A DNA stretch of 35,840 bases from Betaproteobacteria bacterium. Its GTDB lineage: Bacteria; Pseudomonadota; Gammaproteobacteria; Burkholderiales; Casimicrobiaceae. Positions 911-29,206 of the stretch are shown here, piece by piece. The position numbers and the translations under genes were made by a program. Numbering within the stretch: the first letter of the stretch is position 1; the number at the start of each line of letters is the position of its first letter. The notes under the pieces are model-generated. The model was not told the DNA's origin. It did no database searches and saw only the letters and a list, made by a program, of their open reading frames with translations. The DNA is taken from NCBI GenBank assembly GCA_003153475.1, contig PLYT01000115.1:170-36009 (forward strand), read 5' to 3'.

Positions 911-2173
911 CTAGATCGAAAACGACGTTTTGAGCTTTTTCGCGACCGCCACGTTCTTCAGGCGCACGTATTGCGGAAGGCCGTCGCGGAACGGTGGAAA
1001 CGCCTCGCCGCGGGTCAGCGGCGACAGGTAAGCGCGTGCCTTGGCGCTGATGCCGTAGCCGTCGGCGCTGATGTAATCGCGCGGCAGCTTTTTTTCGACG
1101 TTGGCCACCTGGTCCAGCGGAACCGCCTCGATCTTCCACCGGTACGGCTTGTCGGAACTGCGCACGATCGCCGGCATCACCGCGCTCTTGCCGCGAACGG
1201 CGAGCTCGACGGCGGCACGGCCGACCGCGTACGCCTGGTCGACGTCGGTTTTCGAGGCCAGATGCCGCGCGGCGCGCTGCAGATAATCGGCCACCGCCCA
1301 ATGATATTTGTGTCCCAGCTTTTCCTTGATCAGCGAGGCGATCATCGGGCCGACCCCGCCCAGCTGCGCATGGCCGAATGCGTCCCTGGTACCGGCTTCG
1401 GCCAGAAGCTTCCCCTGATCGTCGCGCAGGCCTTCGGAGACGCCGACGCAGCAGTAGCCGAATTGCGCGACTTTCGCGTCGAGGCGCGTCAGGAATTTTG
1501 CCTCGTCGAAAGCGATCTCGGGAAACAGCAGCAGCAACGGAATCGGCGTGCCGGCGTCGTCGGCGAGGCCCACCGCCGCGGTGATCCATCCGGCGTTACG
1601 GCCCATCACTTCCAGCACGAAAACGCGGGTCGAGGTCTTCGCCATCGACGCGACGTCGAATGCGGCCTCGCGCATCGATGTCGCGACGTATTTGGCGACC
1701 GAGCCAAAGCCGGGACAGCAATCGGTTACCGCCAGATCGTTGTCGACGGTCTTCGGCACGTGAACGGCGATCAGCGGGTAGTCGAGGCGTGCCGCCATCT
1801 GCGATACCTTGAGACAGGTGTCGGCCGAGTCGTTGCCGCCGTTGTAGAAAAAATAGCCGATGTCGTGCGCGCGGAAGACGTCGAGCAGCCGCTCGTACTG
1901 CGCGCGGTCGCGATCGATGCCGGCGAGCTTGTACCGGCACGAGCCGAAGGCGCCGGCCGGCGTATGCATCAGCGCCGCGATCGCGCGCGACGATTCGCGG
2001 CCGGTGTCGATCAGGTCCTCGGTCAGCGCGCCGATGATGCCGTTGCGGCCGGCGTAGACGCGGCCGATGCGGTCCTTGTGCTGCCTCGCCGTCTGGATGA
2101 CGCCGCATGCGCTGGCGTTGATTACGGCGGTCACGCCGCCGGACTGCGCGTAAAAGGCATTGCGTCGACTCAC
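911..2173 (-). CDS. pfp: PPi-dependent 6-phosphofructokinase (diphosphate–fructose-6-phosphate 1-phosphotransferase)
   Basis: 420 residues. It reversibly phosphorylates fructose 6-phosphate with PPi instead of ATP, in the cytoplasm, so it can serve glycolysis or gluconeogenesis. The PFK fold is clear: a phosphate-binding N-terminus (AQSGGVTAVINAS, 9-21), GGNDS at 112-116 where ATP enzymes have GGDGS, PKTVDND at 140-146, and MGRNAGW at 190-196. The Asp in GGNDS is the type of change associated with PPi use. The start is GTG (2171-2173), because the first in-frame residues MSRRNAFYAQSGG fit the family and no in-frame ATG lies nearby. No strong ribosome binding site is seen. The neighbouring hppA on the same strand also uses PPi. 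The family is certain; PPi specificity is inferred from the motif and context. Confidence 0.93.
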   Translation of the reverse strand: MSRRNAFYAQSGGVTAVINASACGVIQTARQHKDRIGRVYAGRNGIIGALTEDLIDTGRESSRAIAALMHTPAGAFGSCRYKLAGIDRDRAQYERLLDVFRAHDIGYFFYNGGNDSADTCLKVSQMAARLDYPLIAVHVPKTVDNDLAVTDCCPGFGSVAKYVATSMREAAFDVASMAKTSTRVFVLEVMGRNAGWITAAVGLADDAGTPIPLLLLFPEIAFDEAKFLTRLDAKVAQFGYCCVGVSEGLRDDQGKLLAEAGTRDAFGHAQLGGVGPMIASLIKEKLGHKYHWAVADYLQRAARHLASKTDVDQAYAVGRAAVELAVRGKSAVMPAIVRSSDKPYRWKIEAVPLDQVANVEKKLPRDYISADGYGISAKARAYLSPLTRGEAFPPFRDGLPQYVRLKNVAVAKKLKTSFSI

Positions 2174-21695: not shown

Positions 21696-23579
21696 TTAGC
21701 GCCAGTCGCCGCGCAGCGCGAGCACGTTTTGCTGCAGGTACTCCGGCGTCGCGCGCTCCGGCGGCACCGGCGGACCGGCGACCAGCGCGATGCGCGAAAA
21801 AAGGCCGCGAATCTTTCGCATCGCACGGCCCCGATCGGAGCGGCTGAAGAAGCTGCCCCACAGTCCGCGCAACGCCATCGGCACGACCGGTGCGGGCGCC
21901 TGCTCGAGAATGCGCTGCAGACCCGGGCGAAACGGATTGAGCTCGCCGGTGTCGGTGAGCTTGCCTTCGGGAAAGATGCCGACGACCTCGCCCGCCCGAA
22001 GCGCCGCGGCCGCCTCGGCGAACGCGCGCTCCTTCATCGCCGCGTCTTCCTTCGCTGGTGCGATCGGAATCGTACGCATGATGCGAAAGACGAAATTCAG
22101 CAGCGGCACGCGGAAAACGCGGTGGTCCATGACGAACCGGATCGGTCGGCGCACGCAGGCGGCGATGACGATCGCGTCAACGAAGCTCACGTGATTGCAG
22201 ACGATGACGCATGGCCCTTCGGCCGGAATGCGCTCGAGGCCCTCCTTGTCGACGCGGTAGAGGGTATGGACCAGCAGCCACGCCAGGAATCGCATCAGGA
22301 ATTCGGGGACCAGCAGGTAAATGTAGATCGCGACGACCGCGTTCATCAGGCCGGTCACGAGCAGCAGCTGAGGAATCGACAGGCCCGCCTTGAGCAGCGC
22401 CAGCGCGATGCCCGCCGACGCGACCATGAAGATCGCGTTGAGAATGTTGTTGGCGGCGATGATGCGCGAGCGGAACGCGGGCTCGGAGCGCTCCTGTATC
22501 AGCGCGTAGAGCGGAACGATGTAGAAGCCGCCGAACACGCCGATCAGCACCAGGTCGGCGATGACGCGCCAGTGTGCGCTCACGGCAAAGAAAGCGCCTA
22601 TGCCGGCGAGACCTTGCGGCGCCAGATTGCGGCTGGCCAGGTACAAGTCGATCGCGAACACCGACAATCCGATCGAGCCGAAGGGCACGAGGCCGATCTC
22701 GACCTTGTGTCCCGACAGTCGCTCGCACATCAGCGAGCCGACGCCGATACCGATCGAGAAGATCGCGAGCAGCAAGGTCGCCACGTGCTCGTCGCCGCCC
22801 AGCACGTCCTTGGTGAAGTTGGCGAACTGCGTGAGGTACGTCGCGCCGTAGAACCAGAACCAGGAGATGCCCAGCATCGCGAGCCATACGACGCGGTTGC
22901 CGTGCGCGAAGCGAAGATTGCGCCAGGTTTCGGTGAACGGGTTCCAGTTGATGCGCAATTGCGGCGCGACCGCCGGTGTCTCGGGGATGCCGCGAGAAAC
23001 GAGATACCCGCCGATCCCGATCGCTATTGCCGTCGCGCCGGCGAGCAGCGGTCCCTCCGGCTTGATCGCGATCACCAGTCCGCCGACGATCTCGCCCAGC
23101 AGGATCGCGACGAACGTTCCCATCTCGACCAGCCCGTTGCCGCCGACCAGCTCGTCGTTGCGCAGATGCTGAGGCAGTATCGCGTACTTGACCGGACCGA
23201 ACAGCGTCGAGTGCACGCCCATCAGGCCGAGTGCTGCGAACAGCAGCAACAGGTCGCGCCGGTAAAAGCCGACGGCGCCGACGATCATGATGGCGATCTC
23301 GAAGGTCTTGATCAGTCGAATCAGGCGCGACTTTTCGTACTTGTCGGCAAGCTGGCCGGCGGTTGCGGAAAACAGCATGAACGGCGCGATGAAAACCGCC
23401 GCCGCGATATTGACCAGGTCGTTCGACGAGAACGCCGTCAGCGCAGCCGCCTGGAAGGCGACAAAGATGACCAGCGCGTTCTTGTACACGTTGTCGTTGC
23501 CGGCGCCGAGGAATTGCGTCCAGAAAAACGGCGCGAAGCGCTTTTCGCGCAACAACTGGAACTGACTGTGTTCGGCCAT
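21696..23579 (-). CDS. LplT-like MFS lysophospholipid transporter fused to a PlsC-type acyltransferase
   Basis: 627 residues. Residues 1 to about 410 are an MFS transporter like LplT (FWTQFLGAGNDNVYKNALVI, then LFGPVKYAILPQHL), which flips lysophospholipids inward. Residues from about 430 on are a 1-acylglycerol-3-phosphate acyltransferase domain with NHVSFVD near 461-467 (the NHx4D active site) and FPEGKLT near 533. This fusion lets imported lysolipid be re-acylated. Enteric bacteria add an acyl-ACP synthetase domain (Aas), which is missing here, so acyl donors must come from elsewhere. The ATG is at 23577-23579. It is 18 bp after an ArsR-type regulator gene and shares its promoter. Confidence 0.92.
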   Translation of the reverse strand: MAEHSQFQLLREKRFAPFFWTQFLGAGNDNVYKNALVIFVAFQAAALTAFSSNDLVNIAAAVFIAPFMLFSATAGQLADKYEKSRLIRLIKTFEIAIMIVGAVGFYRRDLLLLFAALGLMGVHSTLFGPVKYAILPQHLRNDELVGGNGLVEMGTFVAILLGEIVGGLVIAIKPEGPLLAGATAIAIGIGGYLVSRGIPETPAVAPQLRINWNPFTETWRNLRFAHGNRVVWLAMLGISWFWFYGATYLTQFANFTKDVLGGDEHVATLLLAIFSIGIGVGSLMCERLSGHKVEIGLVPFGSIGLSVFAIDLYLASRNLAPQGLAGIGAFFAVSAHWRVIADLVLIGVFGGFYIVPLYALIQERSEPAFRSRIIAANNILNAIFMVASAGIALALLKAGLSIPQLLLVTGLMNAVVAIYIYLLVPEFLMRFLAWLLVHTLYRVDKEGLERIPAEGPCVIVCNHVSFVDAIVIAACVRRPIRFVMDHRVFRVPLLNFVFRIMRTIPIAPAKEDAAMKERAFAEAAAALRAGEVVGIFPEGKLTDTGELNPFRPGLQRILEQAPAPVVPMALRGLWGSFFSRSDRGRAMRKIRGLFSRIALVAGPPVPPERATPEYLQQNVLALRGDWR

Positions 23580-24849: not shown

Positions 24850-24901
24850 AAGGCTCGGCGGTCCTCGGCCGGATGCAGCACATCGTGCAACGGAGGTTTC
24901 G

Positions 24902-25051
24902 ATGATCAGGAAACTCGCCTCGGGCGGTTATCGCCTCTATTCCCGCAAGGTCGATCTCAAAACCGGCAAGCGCCGCAACCTGGGCACATTCAAGACCCGC
25001 GCAGCCGCCGAGAAGCACGAACGTGAGGTCCAGTACTTCAAGCGGCATTGA
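24902..25051 (+). CDS. Small basic conserved protein (49 aa)
   Basis: 49 residues, beginning IRKLASGGYRLYSRKVD and including GKRRNLGTFKTRAAAEKHE. The ATG at 24902 has a strong GGAGG ribosome binding site seven bases upstream. The protein is rich in Lys and Arg, with a predicted beta-hairpin then a helix ending in HEREVQYFKRH, a shape that resembles small nucleic-acid-binding or integrase-arm-like modules. I have a sense of similar short proteins in other proteobacteria but cannot name the family. It is 52 bp after thyA on the same strand. It converges on the sigma-54-driven small gene, whose terminator begins 37 bp away. Confidence 0.82.
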   Translation: MIRKLASGGYRLYSRKVDLKTGKRRNLGTFKTRAAAEKHEREVQYFKRH

Positions 25052-25088
25052 CTGTGGAGCGAACGTCCCTAGTGGAGCGCGAACGGGC

Positions 25089-25120
25089 AAAAAAAAGCCC
25101 GCCGGAGGAAGTGAGCGGGC
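25089..25120 (-). terminator. Rho-independent terminator of the sigma-54-driven small gene
   Basis: On the minus strand, GCCCGC (25120-25115) pairs with GCGGGC (25102-25097) around a 12-base loop, followed by eight T residues (25096-25089). This is a canonical intrinsic terminator placed 26 bases after the stop of the 55-codon gene. It is the only clear one in the window. Confidence 0.88.
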
Positions 25121-25146
25121 AAGGGGGATTAGGTCGGGCGGTACGG

Positions 25147-25314
25147 TCAGACGACGCTCCGGGCGGCATTGACGCGGTCGGCCAGCTCTTCGAGCGCGAC
25201 TTGTTGCGAAGGCGACAGCGCCTGCTTGGGGCCGTGGTCGATGCCGTCGGGCTCGCCGGCTCGGTCGGGCTTCGCAAGCCAGTACGCTGTGAACTCGGGT
25301 GCAAACCTGTCCAT
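25147..25314 (-). CDS. 55-residue protein of unknown function under GlrR/sigma-54-type control
   Basis: The frame encodes 55 residues: MDRFAPEFTAYWLAKPDRAG, then EPDGIDHGPKQALSPSQQVA, then LEELADRVNAARSVV. A strong AGGAGG ribosome binding site precedes the ATG (25312-25314) by six bases. The N-terminal part is rich in aromatic residues, Gly, Pro and Asp and probably little structured; residues 33-53 look like an amphipathic helix. It has no signal peptide, membrane segment or Cys. I do not recognise it. It is bracketed by a perfect sigma-54 promoter upstream and an intrinsic terminator downstream, making a roughly 278-base transcription unit of its own, next to and in line with glrR. The transcript might also act as an RNA. 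Confidence 0.8.
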   Translation of the reverse strand: MDRFAPEFTAYWLAKPDRAGEPDGIDHGPKQALSPSQQVALEELADRVNAARSVV

Positions 25315-25336
25315 TGCCGCCTCCTGTTACCGCTTG

Positions 25337-25361
25337 GCATCGCGCAACTTGCGCCGGATGC
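25337..25361 (-). other. Hairpin at the 5' end of the sigma-54 transcript
   Basis: On the minus strand, GCATC-CG-GCGC (25361-25351) pairs with GCGC-GATGC (25345-25337) around the loop AAGTT, with a two-base bulge. It starts about six bases after the expected transcription start and ends 16 bases before the ribosome binding site. It could protect the 5' end or be an RNA-protein contact site. Confidence 0.55.
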
Positions 25362-25376
25362 TTTCGGAGGGACATC

Positions 25377-25393
25377 AAGCAATCGCCGTGCCA
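25377..25393 (-). promoter_or_regulatory. Sigma-54 (-24/-12) promoter
   Basis: On the minus strand, TGGCAC (25393-25388), five bases, then TTGCTT (25382-25377). This matches the consensus TGGCAC-N5-TTGC perfectly, with the obligatory GG and GC ten bases apart. The predicted start is near 25367, 53 bases before the small gene's ATG. A sigma-54 activator (GlrR) is encoded 229 bp upstream. Confidence 0.88.
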
Positions 25394-25412
25394 CAAGGTT
25401 TGCGTATCGATG

Positions 25413-25425
25413 AATCAGGGGCTTG
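25413..25425 (+). promoter_or_regulatory. Near-consensus IHF site between activator site and promoter
   Basis: AATCAG-GGGC-TTG differs from the IHF consensus WATCAA-N4-TTR at one base. It is centred about 52 bases upstream of the predicted start, where DNA bending would help a bound activator reach sigma-54 polymerase. Confidence 0.45.
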
Positions 25426-25488
25426 GCCCGCAGTGAACGTCCGGAACACGTGCGCAGCGGGTAAAACATCGCCGCAACTGGGACAAAC

Positions 25489-25506
25489 TGTCGTATTTAC
25501 ACGACA
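25489..25506. promoter_or_regulatory. GlrR-type activator site 1 (TGTC-N10-GACA)
   Basis: TGTCGTATTTACACGACA is a TGTC-N10-GACA palindrome; the inner bases extend the match to TGTCGT/ACGACA. This is the motif known for GlrR (QseF) upstream of the sigma-54 promoters of enterobacterial glmY and glmZ. It is centred about 130 bases upstream of the predicted start. Confidence 0.78.
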
Positions 25507-25525
25507 TCGCTACGCTGCATTGCAG

Positions 25526-25538
25526 CAATAGATTGATT
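25526..25538 (-). promoter_or_regulatory. Perfect IHF consensus between the two activator sites
   Basis: CAATAGATTGATT on the plus strand reads AATCAA-TCTA-TTG on the minus strand, a full match to WATCAA-N4-TTR. It lies in an AT-rich stretch midway between the two TGTC-N10-GACA sites and could fold the upstream DNA so that both act together. Confidence 0.6.
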
Positions 25539-25553
25539 TTACTAAGTTTTATT

Positions 25554-25571
25554 TGTCTCCGAACAGAGACA
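25554..25571. promoter_or_regulatory. GlrR-type activator site 2 (TGTC-N10-GACA)
   Basis: TGTCTCCGAACAGAGACA is a second TGTC-N10-GACA site, with arms extending to TGTCTC/GAGACA. It is centred 65 bp upstream of site 1 and 50 bp after the glrR stop. No third site was found nearby, unlike the three reported for glmY. Read as RNA from the glrR transcript it could also form a small stem, but no T-run follows. Confidence 0.78.
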
Positions 25572-25621
25572 TACGTGCAAAAATGCAACAAAACGCGGCA
25601 TATCGGCACCCGTTCGACCCA

Positions 25622-26980
25622 TCAGCCCTTGGCTTCTTTGAACATCGCCGGCTCGAGGCGATGCCGCTGCAGAAGCTTGTAGAACTCGGTGCGATTACGC
25701 TTGGCCAAGGTTGCCGCCTGCGTGACGTTGCCGCCGGTGATTTTGAGCAACCGGACCAGATAGTCGCGTTCGAATTGCTTGCGCGCTTCCTCGAACGGAG
25801 CCAGGACGCCGGAATCCTCGCGCAGCGCGCCGTGCACCAGCGTGGCGGGAATGACGCTCGTCGTTGTCAGCGCGACCGCCTGCTCGAGCAAATTGAGGAG
25901 TTGCCGGACATTGCCCGGCCAGGGTGCGCCGATCAGGAGCGCCATCGCATCGGGCGCCAAGGTCGGCACCGGTTTTTTGTATCGCTCGGCGAGCTTGCGC
26001 AGGAAATGCGTCGCCAGAAGCGGAATATCTTCACGCCGATCGGCGAGCGGCGGCAGCTTGAGCGAAACCACGTTCAAACGGTAGTACAGATCTTCGCGGA
26101 ACTGGCCGTTTTCCTTCTGCGCATCCAGGTCCCGGTGGGTGGCCGAGATGACCCGCACATCAACCGCAATCGATTGCGTCGCGCCTACCGGGCGCACTTC
26201 TCCTTCCTGCAGCACCCGCAGCAGCTTCACCTGCAACGGCAACGCCATGTCGCCGATTTCATCGAGAAAAATCGTGCCCCCGTCGGCGGCCTGGAACAAC
26301 CCCTTGTGCGCCTGCACTGCCCCGCTGAACGCGCCGCGGGCGTGGCCAAACAGCTCCGATTCGAGCAGCGGCTCCGGTATCGCGCCGCAATTGACGCCGA
26401 TGAACGGGCGAGTCGCGCGGCGGCTGGCGCGGTGGATCGCCCGCGCCAGCAACTCCTTGCCCGTGCCCGATTCGCCGAAAATAAGCACGCTGGCGTCGGA
26501 GTCCGCGACCAGGCGCGCCTGCCGCATCAGGTCCTCCATGCGGGGGCTGCGGGTGATGATGCCGGCGCGCCATTCGCCGGTCGCCTGGGGCGTCGGCTCG
26601 GATTCGCCACCGCTCAACCGGACAGCCGCCGCGACTTTCTGCAGCAGCTCCTGGCTGTCGAACGGCTTGGTGAGGAAACCGAACACGCCGCGCTGCGTCG
26701 CCGAGACCGCTTCCGGAATCGTTCCGTGTGCAGTAAGGATGATCACCGGCATCGCCGGATGCTGGCGATGGATGGCATCGAACAGGGCCAGGCCGTCGAT
26801 GCCCGGCATCTTGAGGTCGGTGATCACCGCAGCAGGACGCTGGACCGCCAGCGCCGCGAGCGCGGTTTCGCCGCTGTCGGCGGTGCGCACGCGATAGCCG
26901 GCCGAGATCAGCCGCAGACTGATCAGCTTGAGCAGATCGGGATCATCGTCGACGAGGAGGATTTCACTCGCGTGGGTCAT
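25622..26980 (-). CDS. glrR: Sigma-54-dependent response regulator GlrR (QseF)
   Basis: 452 residues (E. coli GlrR is 444). Receiver domain 6-120 with the acidic pocket DDD at 11-13, phospho-acceptor Asp55 (VITDLKMPG) and Lys105 (LTKP). AAA+ domain about 140-375 with Walker A GESGTGKE (169-176), GAFSGA (216-221), Walker B GTIFLDE (235-241), and the WPGNVRQL motif. C-terminal Fis-type helix-turn-helix ends NRTEFYKLLQRHRLEPAMFK, a stretch close to E. coli GlrR. The usual GAFTGA loop has Ser in place of Thr. The ATG is at 26978-26980; upstream frame extension lacks homology. It lies 19 bp after the QseG-like gene in the glrK-qseG-glrR order. Its likely targets are the two sites just downstream. 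Confidence 0.96.
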   Translation of the reverse strand: MTHASEILLVDDDPDLLKLISLRLISAGYRVRTADSGETALAALAVQRPAAVITDLKMPGIDGLALFDAIHRQHPAMPVIILTAHGTIPEAVSATQRGVFGFLTKPFDSQELLQKVAAAVRLSGGESEPTPQATGEWRAGIITRSPRMEDLMRQARLVADSDASVLIFGESGTGKELLARAIHRASRRATRPFIGVNCGAIPEPLLESELFGHARGAFSGAVQAHKGLFQAADGGTIFLDEIGDMALPLQVKLLRVLQEGEVRPVGATQSIAVDVRVISATHRDLDAQKENGQFREDLYYRLNVVSLKLPPLADRREDIPLLATHFLRKLAERYKKPVPTLAPDAMALLIGAPWPGNVRQLLNLLEQAVALTTTSVIPATLVHGALREDSGVLAPFEEARKQFERDYLVRLLKITGGNVTQAATLAKRNRTEFYKLLQRHRLEPAMFKEAKG

Positions 26981-26999: not shown

Positions 27000-27722
27000 C
27001 TAGCGTCCGGTCCCGCCGCCGCCGCCACCACCACCGGCACCGCCGGCATTGCGACTTCGTTCGAGCAGCAGGGTGCGTTCGACCGCACGCAGTTGATCGA
27101 GTTTTTCCTGGGCCAGCGCGCTTCGCTTTCTTTCCTCGCCGACATTGCGCACTCTTTCGGCGATCTGCGCGTAAAGCACGATGGCGAGCTGCTTCAGCGG
27201 CGATGCACCGCCGGCCTTGCCGGAGACCGATTCGAGCAGGGCCAGCGCACGCGCATCGTCGGGCGGACCGGCGCCGGGCATCGTCAGCAGCACGGCAAGC
27301 CTGATCCGGTTGACGTCGGTGCGCACGCGCGGGTTGCTCGCCTGGGCCACCGAAGCGAGCTCGCGCCGGAGTTCGTCGGCGGACGAGACGGCGTAGCGCT
27401 GCAGATCGGCGAGGACGGCGAGGGTCTGCTGCTCGTCCTCGTTGACCGGAGGTGCGGCCGGCGCTTCCTGCCCCACCGGGCCTGGCGCCTGCGCGGGCAC
27501 CGACGGTTGCGGCGTCGGTGCAGGTGCTTGTGCCGGCGCTTGGGCTAAGAGCGCCGGCATCGATTCGGACTCGGCGCGCGCCGGCGGCGCGACTCCGCTG
27601 GGCATCTGCGAAAGTCCCGGTTGAAGCGCGGCAGCCGCCGCCGGCGCGGTCCATGCACAGAGGCCGATCAGCATTGCCACCGTCGCGCCGGCGCGTGCTG
27701 CCGCTCCACGCCGCACGCTCAC
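27000..27722 (-). CDS. QseG-like exported accessory protein of the GlrK/GlrR system
   Basis: 240 residues. A basic N-terminus and hydrophobic core (AMLIGLCAWTAPAAAA, 16-31) make a Sec signal peptide with AxA-type cleavage. The Cys at 22 is preceded by Leu, so a lipobox is not convincing, although E. coli QseG is an outer-membrane lipoprotein. Residues 45-93 are an Ala/Pro/Gln linker. From about 97 on the protein is helical and coiled-coil-like (ALAQEKLDQLRAVERTLLLE), followed by a Gly-rich tail with eight Gly in a row. The GTG start (27720-27722) overlaps the glrK stop as GTGA. In enteric bacteria QseG binds the kinase to control it. The call rests on position and shape more than on sequence. 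Confidence 0.75.
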   Translation of the reverse strand: MSVRRGAAARAGATVAMLIGLCAWTAPAAAAALQPGLSQMPSGVAPPARAESESMPALLAQAPAQAPAPTPQPSVPAQAPGPVGQEAPAAPPVNEDEQQTLAVLADLQRYAVSSADELRRELASVAQASNPRVRTDVNRIRLAVLLTMPGAGPPDDARALALLESVSGKAGGASPLKQLAIVLYAQIAERVRNVGEERKRSALAQEKLDQLRAVERTLLLERSRNAGGAGGGGGGGGTGR

Positions 27723-29206
27723 CCTTCCTCCTGAAGGGTGCCGATGGGCTTCGTGCCCCTGGCCTGCAGGCGGCCCGTGGGCATCGCCAACGGCAGGTAA
27801 AGCCGGAAATGCGCACCGCGCCGTCCGTCGATCCGGTCGATCAGCTCGATGCGGCCGCCGTGGGCCAGCGTATATTCGCGCGCGATCGCGAGTCCCAGGC
27901 CCGACCCCTTGATTCTGCCCTCAGGCGCAGTCTTGCCCTGGTAGAACGATTCGAAGATGTGTGGCCGGTCGGCCTCGCTTATGCCTGGGCCGGCATCGAT
28001 GACGTCGAGCACCGCCTGGTCGCCGACCGACGAGAGCTCGATCGCGATCGTGCCGGAACGGGGCGAATACTTGATCGCGTTCGACAACAGGTTATCGACG
28101 ATGGCGCGAATCTTTTCACCGTCGCCGACGATGATCGAAGGCGCGAGCTTCGCCTCTACCGTGATCAGGCGCGCGAACGCCGCGAGCTTGTGCTCACGCA
28201 CGACGCGTCGCACCACGTCGACCAGCGCCACCGGCCCCAGCGTTTGCGGCTCGACGCTGCGCGTCTGGTGGTAGTTGAGCAAGTCCTCGATCAGCTTCTG
28301 CAGCGAAAGCGTGTTCTCGCGCACGATGCGCACGATCTCCCTTTGCTCGGGCGACAGCTCGCCACCGACTCGATCGCGCAGCAGCTCGGCGCCCTCGCGA
28401 ACCGCGGTCAGCGGCGTCTTGAGTTCGTGCGAGACATGGCGCAGAAAGCGGTTCTGCTGCTCCTCGAGCTCGTGCAGGCGCGACCGCAGCCATTCGAGGC
28501 GCTGCCCGAGGTAGCGTATGTCCTGCGGGCCGTTGACCTCGATCGCATGCGTGAAGTCGGCGTTGCCCATCTGGCGGATCGCCTGATCGAGCTGGCGTAT
28601 CGGCCTCGCGATCAGGACGGCGAAGGTGATCGCCAGCAGCATCGCGATCAGTCCGGCCGCGAGCGCCAGGTAGCCCCAGGTCTTGCTCCCTTCGGCCGCC
28701 GTTTGCTGAAGATGCTCGATCTCGCGTTCGGTCAGGCGGTTGGTGGCGCTGATCATGGTCTGCGCATCTTCGGCCATCGTCGCATAGCCGTCGGCCAGCG
28801 CTTTTGCGGCGCCGGCCGGCCGTTGCGGCGTCTTCAAAAGCGAAAAGAGGCGGCTTTCGTTTTCGGCGAGTTTCTCGAGCTGCGCGATCTGCGAACGATC
28901 GAGCGGAAGCTGCATCAACTGTTGCGACGTCTGCCGGAAGTCCTGCCGCAGCCGCCCGTAATCGTCGATCAGCTGCGGATCGTCGAGGATCAGCTGCTGG
29001 CGGACCAGCCGCTCCAGCGTCGTCGCCTGCTCATAGAGCTGGCGGCTGGCGCGGCCGGCTTGCGCGGCCTGCAGCACCGCCTGTTGGCTCTGCGTGCCGA
29101 GGCGGTCGAGGCTGACGATCAATTCGACCAATGCATAGAGCAGCGGCAGACTTACCAGCAGGAAGCCGAGCAGAATGAACTTGAGGAATGAGCGCGGGTA
29201 GTACAC
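27719..29206 (-). CDS. glrK: Sensor histidine kinase GlrK (QseE)
   Basis: 495 residues. Membrane helices at about 8-30 and 178-200 bracket a helical periplasmic sensor domain of about 145 residues. HAMP linker 200-250 (RPIRQLDQAIRQMGNADF). The dimerisation helix FLRHVSHELKTPLTAVREGA carries His260. The ATPase domain has the N box DNLLSNAIKYSP, G1 DAGPGIS and G2 GSGLGLAIA. The H-box region and the order kinase, QseG-like, sigma-54 regulator match GlrK. The start is GTG (29204-29206) without a strong ribosome binding site; MYYPRSFLKFILLGF fits the family start. It is divergent from folA, 80 bp apart. The signal sensed is unknown; enteric GlrK responds to envelope conditions. Confidence 0.94.
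   Translation of the reverse strand: MYYPRSFLKFILLGFLLVSLPLLYALVELIVSLDRLGTQSQQAVLQAAQAGRASRQLYEQATTLERLVRQQLILDDPQLIDDYGRLRQDFRQTSQQLMQLPLDRSQIAQLEKLAENESRLFSLLKTPQRPAGAAKALADGYATMAEDAQTMISATNRLTEREIEHLQQTAAEGSKTWGYLALAAGLIAMLLAITFAVLIARPIRQLDQAIRQMGNADFTHAIEVNGPQDIRYLGQRLEWLRSRLHELEEQQNRFLRHVSHELKTPLTAVREGAELLRDRVGGELSPEQREIVRIVRENTLSLQKLIEDLLNYHQTRSVEPQTLGPVALVDVVRRVVREHKLAAFARLITVEAKLAPSIIVGDGEKIRAIVDNLLSNAIKYSPRSGTIAIELSSVGDQAVLDVIDAGPGISEADRPHIFESFYQGKTAPEGRIKGSGLGLAIAREYTLAHGGRIELIDRIDGRRGAHFRLYLPLAMPTGRLQARGTKPIGTLQEEG

Follow-up and report, generated by a model that had tools for sequence, protein, structure and literature searches.

A conserved GlrR- and sigma-54-type control region downstream of glrR in Casimicrobiaceae and its short transcript, which probably combines a small protein with a trans-acting sRNA

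The window, that is, the whole 35,840-nucleotide stretch of DNA that was analysed, carries the glrK-qseG-glrR genes on the minus strand, followed directly downstream of glrR by a compact control region, a 55-codon gene, and a conserved RNA end. These features are as follows:

27719-29206, minus strand: glrK, sensor kinase (33% identity to E. coli GlrK)
27000-27722, minus strand: qseG, assigned by position alone
25622-26980, minus strand: glrR, from profile match and comparison with E. coli; likely start ATG at 26978-26980, longer frame to 27145
25554-25571, minus strand: distal GlrR-type site UAS1, TGTC-N10-GACA, TGTCTCTGTTCGGAGACA (strand reading, motif search, and conserved pair)
25526-25538, minus strand: perfect IHF consensus AATCAATCTATTG, also written WATCAANNNNTTR, between the GlrR-type sites
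25489-25506, minus strand: proximal GlrR-type site UAS2, TGTC-N10-GACA, TGTCGTGTAAATACGACA (strand reading and motif search)
25413-25425, plus strand: second IHF-like site on the opposite strand, 8 of 9 positions; poorly conserved
25379-25393, minus strand: sigma-54-type promoter TGGCACGGCGATTGC, TGGCAC-N5-TTGC; predicted start at about 25367
25337-25361, minus strand: predicted 5′ UTR hairpin
25320-25325, minus strand: Shine-Dalgarno AGGAGG
25147-25314, minus strand: 55-codon gene of the MDxFSPEF...ALEELAERVxAARSVV family, without a known domain
25089-25133, minus strand: sRNA-like 3′ end (covariance model R1), with unpaired CCCCCUU, stem GCCCGC/GCGGGC, a loop with CUUCCUCC, and a U8 tail
25121-25127, minus strand: putative seed 1, CCCCCUU, single-stranded ahead of the hairpin
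25104-25108, minus strand: putative seed 2, CCUCC (anti-Shine-Dalgarno), in the terminator loop, predicted unpaired
25089-25120, minus strand: terminator hairpin, part of the sRNA-like 3′ end

The regulator beside the tiny gene shares 60% identity over 450 aa with GlrR of E. coli K-12, the C-terminal region being very similar, and GlrR (NF011695) is the best of 124 NCBIfam families at 637.8 bits, which lies below the curated cut-off of 763. The name GlrR given in the original prediction is supported by this comparison despite the score. Comparison of the 27000-27722 product, the positional QseG, gave no significant sequence match. The genome itself encodes RpoN and Hfq, and the GlrK-QseG-GlrR system is described from Betaproteobacteria (PMC12691602).

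A motif search of the window found TGTC-N10-GACA twice against 0.33 expected, with two or more copies in 5 of 100 shuffles, which is weak evidence against chance. Conservation settles the control region as real, and it is accepted because it is kept across the family loci, not because of window statistics. A query with the 55-aa protein against 100 relatives yielded 24 genomes, including its own, from three genera of the window's family (rows L040 and L041 were excluded as second, weak small-frame matches in genomes already counted). glrR lies upstream at 22 of the 24 loci, its stop 258 to 441 nt ahead of the small frame; at one exception (L018) the contig ends, and at the other (L038) glrR precedes the RNA end by approximately 5.3 kb, as read on the longer record L164. 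Enough upstream DNA for the site-pair test is present at 23 of the 24 loci, and at all 23 the pair is spaced by exactly 65 bp, with no mismatch in 13 and one in 10. The best IHF-like match falls at a fixed offset between the sites in 19/23 loci (at least 8 of 9 positions in 15 of these), and the strict sigma-54 pattern TGG[CT]A[CT]N5TTGC occurs in 20/24.

The original prediction had read two GlrR sites, a perfect IHF site between them, a consensus promoter, and a 5′ hairpin in this region, and all are found where it put them. It had also named conservation in close relatives as a point on which it could fail; the sites, the promoter, and a short frame beside glrR do recur. Two of its details hold for the window but only in part for the family: the near-perfect second IHF site is in place, but just 4/23 loci reach at least 8 of 9 positions, and the AGGAGG ribosome binding site is present, but many relatives have a weak one or none. 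Genome-wide, 21 of 64 family genomes contain the exact pair pattern (44-50 bp between sites), each a single time, and none contains its reversed control; 20 of these 21 places are the small-gene locus. The remaining one, in genome G015, precedes a different gene (L228, approximately 1331-1485, reverse strand); this second perfect GlrR-type pair, spaced by 66 bp and accompanied by a sigma-54-type promoter, is a possible further GlrR target. Chance occurrence of the site pair is rejected by family conservation, by the genome-wide exact-pair counts, and by the order-wide controls given below. The locus has the layout of a GlrR regulon member, its TGTC-N10-GACA sites lying ahead of a sigma-54-type promoter, and its control by GlrR and sigma-54, as read from sequence and conservation, is very probable.

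There is little doubt that the small frame, whose 55 codons are in place as originally described, codes for a real protein under purifying selection. dN/dS ranges from 0.10 to 0.69 across the 14 pairs computed, and among the 276 pairs drawn from 24 sequences, pN falls short of pS in 271 (the median pN/pS of 0.65 is not strong, many pairs being distant). In an alignment of 23 of these sequences, with one near-identical sequence left out, the termini are conserved (MDxFSPEF; ALEELAERVxAARSVV) and the middle is variable; seven residues are invariant, six of them within the C-terminal 16. A profile search at E 0.01 found the protein in 43/64 family genomes from six of seven genera, and at E 0.001 in 5/399 genomes of the order, all five belonging to the window's family (12 of the 399). 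No relative was found in Pfam, NCBIfam, or PDB at the thresholds used, the PDB sequence search giving 0 matches, and no DUF1127 match appeared among the 23 members up to E 0.1. The AlphaFold model has a mean pLDDT of 66.4 with one longer helix at 35-53; a Foldseek search of a viral library with this poor model gave a best E of 5.2 and carries no weight here.

The intrinsic terminator of the original prediction, a hairpin with a U tail, is in place but is far more than a terminator, as it belongs to a conserved RNA end. The last 45 nt of the transcript follow the consensus GAAUCCCCCUUGCCCGC, a loop ending in CUCC(C), GCGGGC, and a U tail at 24/24 loci, or, in short, AAUCCCCCUUGCCCGC-(CUCC-rich loop)-GCGGGC-U7, with CCTCC inside the hairpin loop at 23/24. 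Alignment of 22 of the 24 RNA ends (two loci with duplicate ends were left out) gave 21 invariant columns, unpaired ones included; the loop is more variable than the CCCCC and the stem, and the unpaired CCCCC hardly varies, if at all. Each of the 24 loci carries a run of 5 to 9 U, in some cases after a short run and a C, and the long-U-tail terminator used as a criterion for Hfq-dependent sRNAs is found at every one. Among the 12 terminators located by script in the window, only the RNA-end hairpin has a CCTCC loop.

At E 0.001, R1 has exactly one match per genome in 41/64 family genomes, with 37/47 in six genera and 4/17 in genus g2, where the matches are weak, and it misses 23/64. The exact RNA-end pattern was found in 23 records among 84,980 species genomes. 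Twenty of these carry labels consistent with Betaproteobacteria (one merely "Proteobacteria"), 18 of them not being independent of the family genomes already counted, and the small frame is present in 19/19 of those with enough upstream sequence; one record matching the RNA end in the window's family is labelled Casimicrobiaceae. The other three (two actinobacteria and one Rhodobacter) have no frame, glrR, sites, or promoter and look like chance matches. A metagenome-assembled genome labelled Bordetella parapertussis (L175) carries the locus of the window's family, and its label is probably wrong.

Across the order, R1 matches 80/399 genomes at E 0.01 and is weak outside the window's family, where matches were counted as relatives only if they lay beside a GlrR-type promoter; the 30 best loci were read. 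Rfam gave zero matches of any family over 25050-25620 up to E 10, and seven matches at 16 related loci up to E 1, each below its family cut-off, one being Thr_leader, which covers the CCUCC hairpin of L099 at 25.9 of 55 bits. Elsewhere in the window, Rfam Bcj11 (RF02835) matches 22800-22921 on the minus strand at 52.6 bits against a cut-off of 49, within the frame of an MFS and acyltransferase protein, and a basic 49-aa frame (MIRKLASGGYRLYSRK...), read by eye, lies at 24900-25050 on the plus strand between thyA and the RNA end.

The frame and the RNA end come apart in some lineages. In genus g6, whose genomes measure 1.3 to 2.4 Mb, the profile search found the small frame in 0/11 genomes, and R1 matches 7/11. 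Each of these seven loci keeps the promoter, a site pair at 64-65 bp, and the RNA end, the last with its stem altered on both sides to GCCCAC/GTGGGC and with transcripts ending like GAACCCCCUUUGGCCCACCUCCUCCUGGUGGGCUUUCUUUUUU; glrR lies upstream at six, and the seventh contig is too short. The predicted g6 transcript is approximately 100 to 200 nt long, without a related frame at the seven loci. The reverse case is G044 (L227), which keeps the sites, promoter, and small frame and lacks the RNA end, with thyA directly after. In g2, four loci (L210, L212, L213, and L214) have the frame, a pair at 65-66 bp, and the promoter variant TGGCAC-N5-CCGC, and glrR is absent from the stretch read; their last hairpin has no CCUCC, and the motif sits instead in the loop region of a separate hairpin immediately before it. 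Three of the four g2 R1 matches lie with sites, promoter, and frame on a hairpin without CCUCC; the fourth, in G056, lacks both sites and promoter and could be a terminator matched by chance. A frame that we take to be dut-like follows glrR in six g2 genomes of the sample (L074-L079).

It is proposed that GlrK and GlrR control a single transcript of approximately 279 nt encoded immediately downstream of glrR. Phosphorylated GlrR would occupy both sites of the 65-bp pair, IHF would bend the intervening DNA, and sigma-54 RNA polymerase would initiate near 25367, a position predicted from sequence and conservation. The first product would be the 55-aa protein, whose conserved C-terminal part is predicted to be helical. 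The second would be a 3′-terminal sRNA of approximately 45 nt, or else the full-length RNA in that role, with the CCCCCUU and the CUUCCUCC loop pairing with purine-rich ribosome binding sites of other mRNAs and repressing them, probably with the assistance of Hfq. That the RNA acts in trans is fairly likely; this mode of action, its dependence on Hfq, and its targets are proposed by analogy with NfeR1 (PMC10746234), CcsR (PMC10253847), S17 (PMC11722255), and GlmY (PMC8745638). The full reading, in which phosphorylated GlrR and sigma-54 produce a dual-function transcript encoding a small protein and a GlmY-like sRNA that acts in trans through anti-Shine-Dalgarno seeds, is considered probable. 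Weighing against it are G044, the weak g2 matches, the 23/64 family genomes missed by R1, the more variable loop, the general C-richness of such loops in other families, the poor Shine-Dalgarno of many relatives, the median pN/pS, and the GlrR score below its cut-off.

The strongest competing explanation is a plain small-protein gene under GlrR and sigma-54, with an unusually conserved terminator that has no function in trans. The purifying selection on the frame and its profile match in 43/64 family genomes would fit such a gene, as would G044, which has the frame without the RNA end, and the order-wide matches, 20 of the best 30 R1 loci lying outside families f1 and f48 and nearly all of these looking like plain terminators without CCUCC. 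A plain gene does not account for g6, where the promoter and RNA end are kept without a detectable frame, nor for the near invariance of the unpaired CCCCC, nor for the CCUCC loops that reappear in other families on unrelated stems, and this explanation is regarded as unlikely. The RNA end could instead act in cis, its CCUCC loop pairing with its own Shine-Dalgarno sequence or binding a protein that governs how stable its own mRNA is. The window loop CUUCCUCC is indeed complementary to the AGGAGG at 25320-25325, but many relatives that keep the loop have a weak Shine-Dalgarno sequence or none, and in g6 the loop is present with no detected frame to regulate, making a role in cis improbable. 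A spurious frame in a purely noncoding sRNA locus, which is how g6 appears, is rejected as highly improbable for the family by pN below pS in 271/276 pairs and by the seven invariant residues clustered toward the C-terminus.

The dual-function reading alters one further claim. The original prediction held that the output is a small mRNA, unlike the enterobacterial sRNAs; the frame is under selection, as this requires, but the 3′ end is conserved and sRNA-like, and since g6 keeps it without a detected frame, an opposition between a small mRNA here and the enterobacterial sRNAs is not supported. One short stress-linked transcript beside an envelope-stress regulator seems, from its sequence features, to unite a tiny protein with a small regulatory RNA.

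GlrR was found at E 1e-120 or better in 155/399 genomes of the order, from which 80 downstream regions were chosen to cover families rather than at random, 72 of them outside the window's family and from 36 families. At 24 of these 72 loci, in 18 of the 36 families, glrR is followed by a site pair spaced 63-68 bp, and 11 permuted half-site controls gave none at this spacing. A sigma-54-type promoter of at least 9/10 is present at 56/72 loci vs. 1/72 on the reverse strand. Pfam searches with six proteins encoded behind such promoters returned CsbD, glycine-zipper, BON with EF-hand, and BON, two being unmatched; the remaining proteins were judged by eye, and the genes are partly of envelope type. 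A linked GlrR output is widespread, because paired sites and a promoter often follow glrR elsewhere in Burkholderiales, and the micro-mRNA/sRNA form is the variant of the window's family. The dedicated GlrR output originally predicted for a betaproteobacterium is thus borne out as a linked output, but this organism is not alone in having one.

Hairpins that combine a CCUCC loop with a U tract occur at 12 of the 72 loci, from seven other families, within approximately 2 kb after glrR, and at 0 on the reverse strand; two more f48 loci have one at approximately 3 kb, and a further hairpin downstream at L133 looks unrelated. Among control words in the loops, CTCCC scored 11 and TCCCC 7 (largely the same loops), and CCCTC and CCCCT 1 each; the first two score as well because C-richness is a general property of the loops. 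A CCUCC loop is present in 8/28 first terminators behind the promoter vs. 5/108 others (Fisher p 0.0008), a count left unadjusted although four of the five background loops look like GlrR-linked operon ends. In the f48 genomes G149 and G106, a window-like RNA end follows a CsbD and glycine-zipper operon with a GlrR-type site and promoter; glrR adjoins this operon in G149 and is not in the stretch read in G106. Tentatively, GlrR of Burkholderiales may ancestrally have driven an envelope operon with a CCUCC-loop sRNA in its 3′ UTR, which then shrank to a 50-codon gene in Casimicrobiaceae and to a free sRNA in the small-genome genus. If true, this would be an observed series from an mRNA 3′ UTR to a stand-alone sRNA, and the wiring of enterobacterial glmY, from GlrR and sigma-54 to an sRNA, would have been reached independently.

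In the open-licence literature, as far as its accessible text goes, no betaproteobacterial GlrR target and neither this RNA nor this protein were found, and a genome-wide comparison of sigma-54 promoters from 2011 (PMC3162934) may list some of the promoters. An RNA output of GlrR and sigma-54 is of a known kind, and its parts here are new. The locus provides an address for a betaproteobacterial GlrR target, with sites, promoter, and product directly beside glrR, and brings in a small-protein family with no match in Pfam or NCBIfam, together with an RNA end unmatched in Rfam, each at the thresholds used. The forms found, namely a long operon with the RNA end, a micro-mRNA with the RNA end, and the RNA alone, offer a chance to study the separation of sRNA and mRNA. 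The locus suggests that GlrR is linked to regulatory RNA outside the enterobacteria as well.

The toxic sRNA family RF02278 was considered and rejected. CUCCUC-type seeds are present in the ten members read, and its covariance model matches 52/80 order genomes at E 0.001, 30 of them above its cut-off, but it matches neither 25050-25620 nor any other part of the window's own genome.

In Enterobacteriaceae, GlmY is an RNA product of GlrR and sigma-54, and its gene adjoins glrK-qseG-glrR (PMC8745638; PMC6075780). GlrK/GlrR is also named QseE/QseF, and TGTC-N10-GACA is described as the QseF consensus (PMC8745638). A motif search of E. coli K-12 glmY found perfect TGTC-N10-GACA sites at -230, -197, and -134 and TGGCAC-N5-CTGC at -27. 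The window locus shares the GlrR/sigma-54-type control, the TGTC-N10-GACA and IHF sites, the adjacent operon, and, by prediction, an RNA output, and its 65-bp spacing is close to the 63 bp between the -197 and -134 sites. Two f9 loci (L132 and L146) have GlrR-type sites 96-97 bp apart, as in the outer glmY pair (-230/-134). However, glmY lies upstream of glrK, whereas the window locus lies downstream of glrR; the window locus has no Rfam match to GlmY/GlmZ or any other family, and its transcript has a coding frame and a CCUCC-loop 3′ end.

Regarding build, parallels are found among RNAs with anti-Shine-Dalgarno motifs. NfeR1 is described as repressing its target at the translation start through unpaired CCUCCUCCC anti-Shine-Dalgarno motifs (PMC10746234), and in Rhodobacter a small-protein gene, ccaF1, is followed by the CcsR1-4 RNAs on one stress-linked transcript (PMC10253847). 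The window locus resembles these cuckoo RNAs and CcsR-CcaF1 in joining a small protein to a CCUCC in a hairpin loop, predicted unpaired in the window, but the full CCUCCUCCC of the cuckoo RNAs is absent from the window. CcaF1 is a DUF1127 protein expressed from an RpoHI/RpoHII promoter, whereas the window encodes an unrelated protein under GlrR/sigma-54-type control and has a single hairpin that doubles as the terminator. S17 of Bordetella pertussis is an sRNA processed out of a transcript that carries a putative small frame, and it has single-stranded seeds near ribosome binding sites (PMC11722255). By its published description rather than its sequence, S17 is comparable in being betaproteobacterial and in combining a small frame with single-stranded seeds, and it differs in its sigma-A promoter, its coq7 locus, and its layout. 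By analogy, the locus of the window would be GlmY-like in wiring rather than in sequence, and CcaF1-CcsR-like in its build of a small protein followed by a CCUCC RNA.
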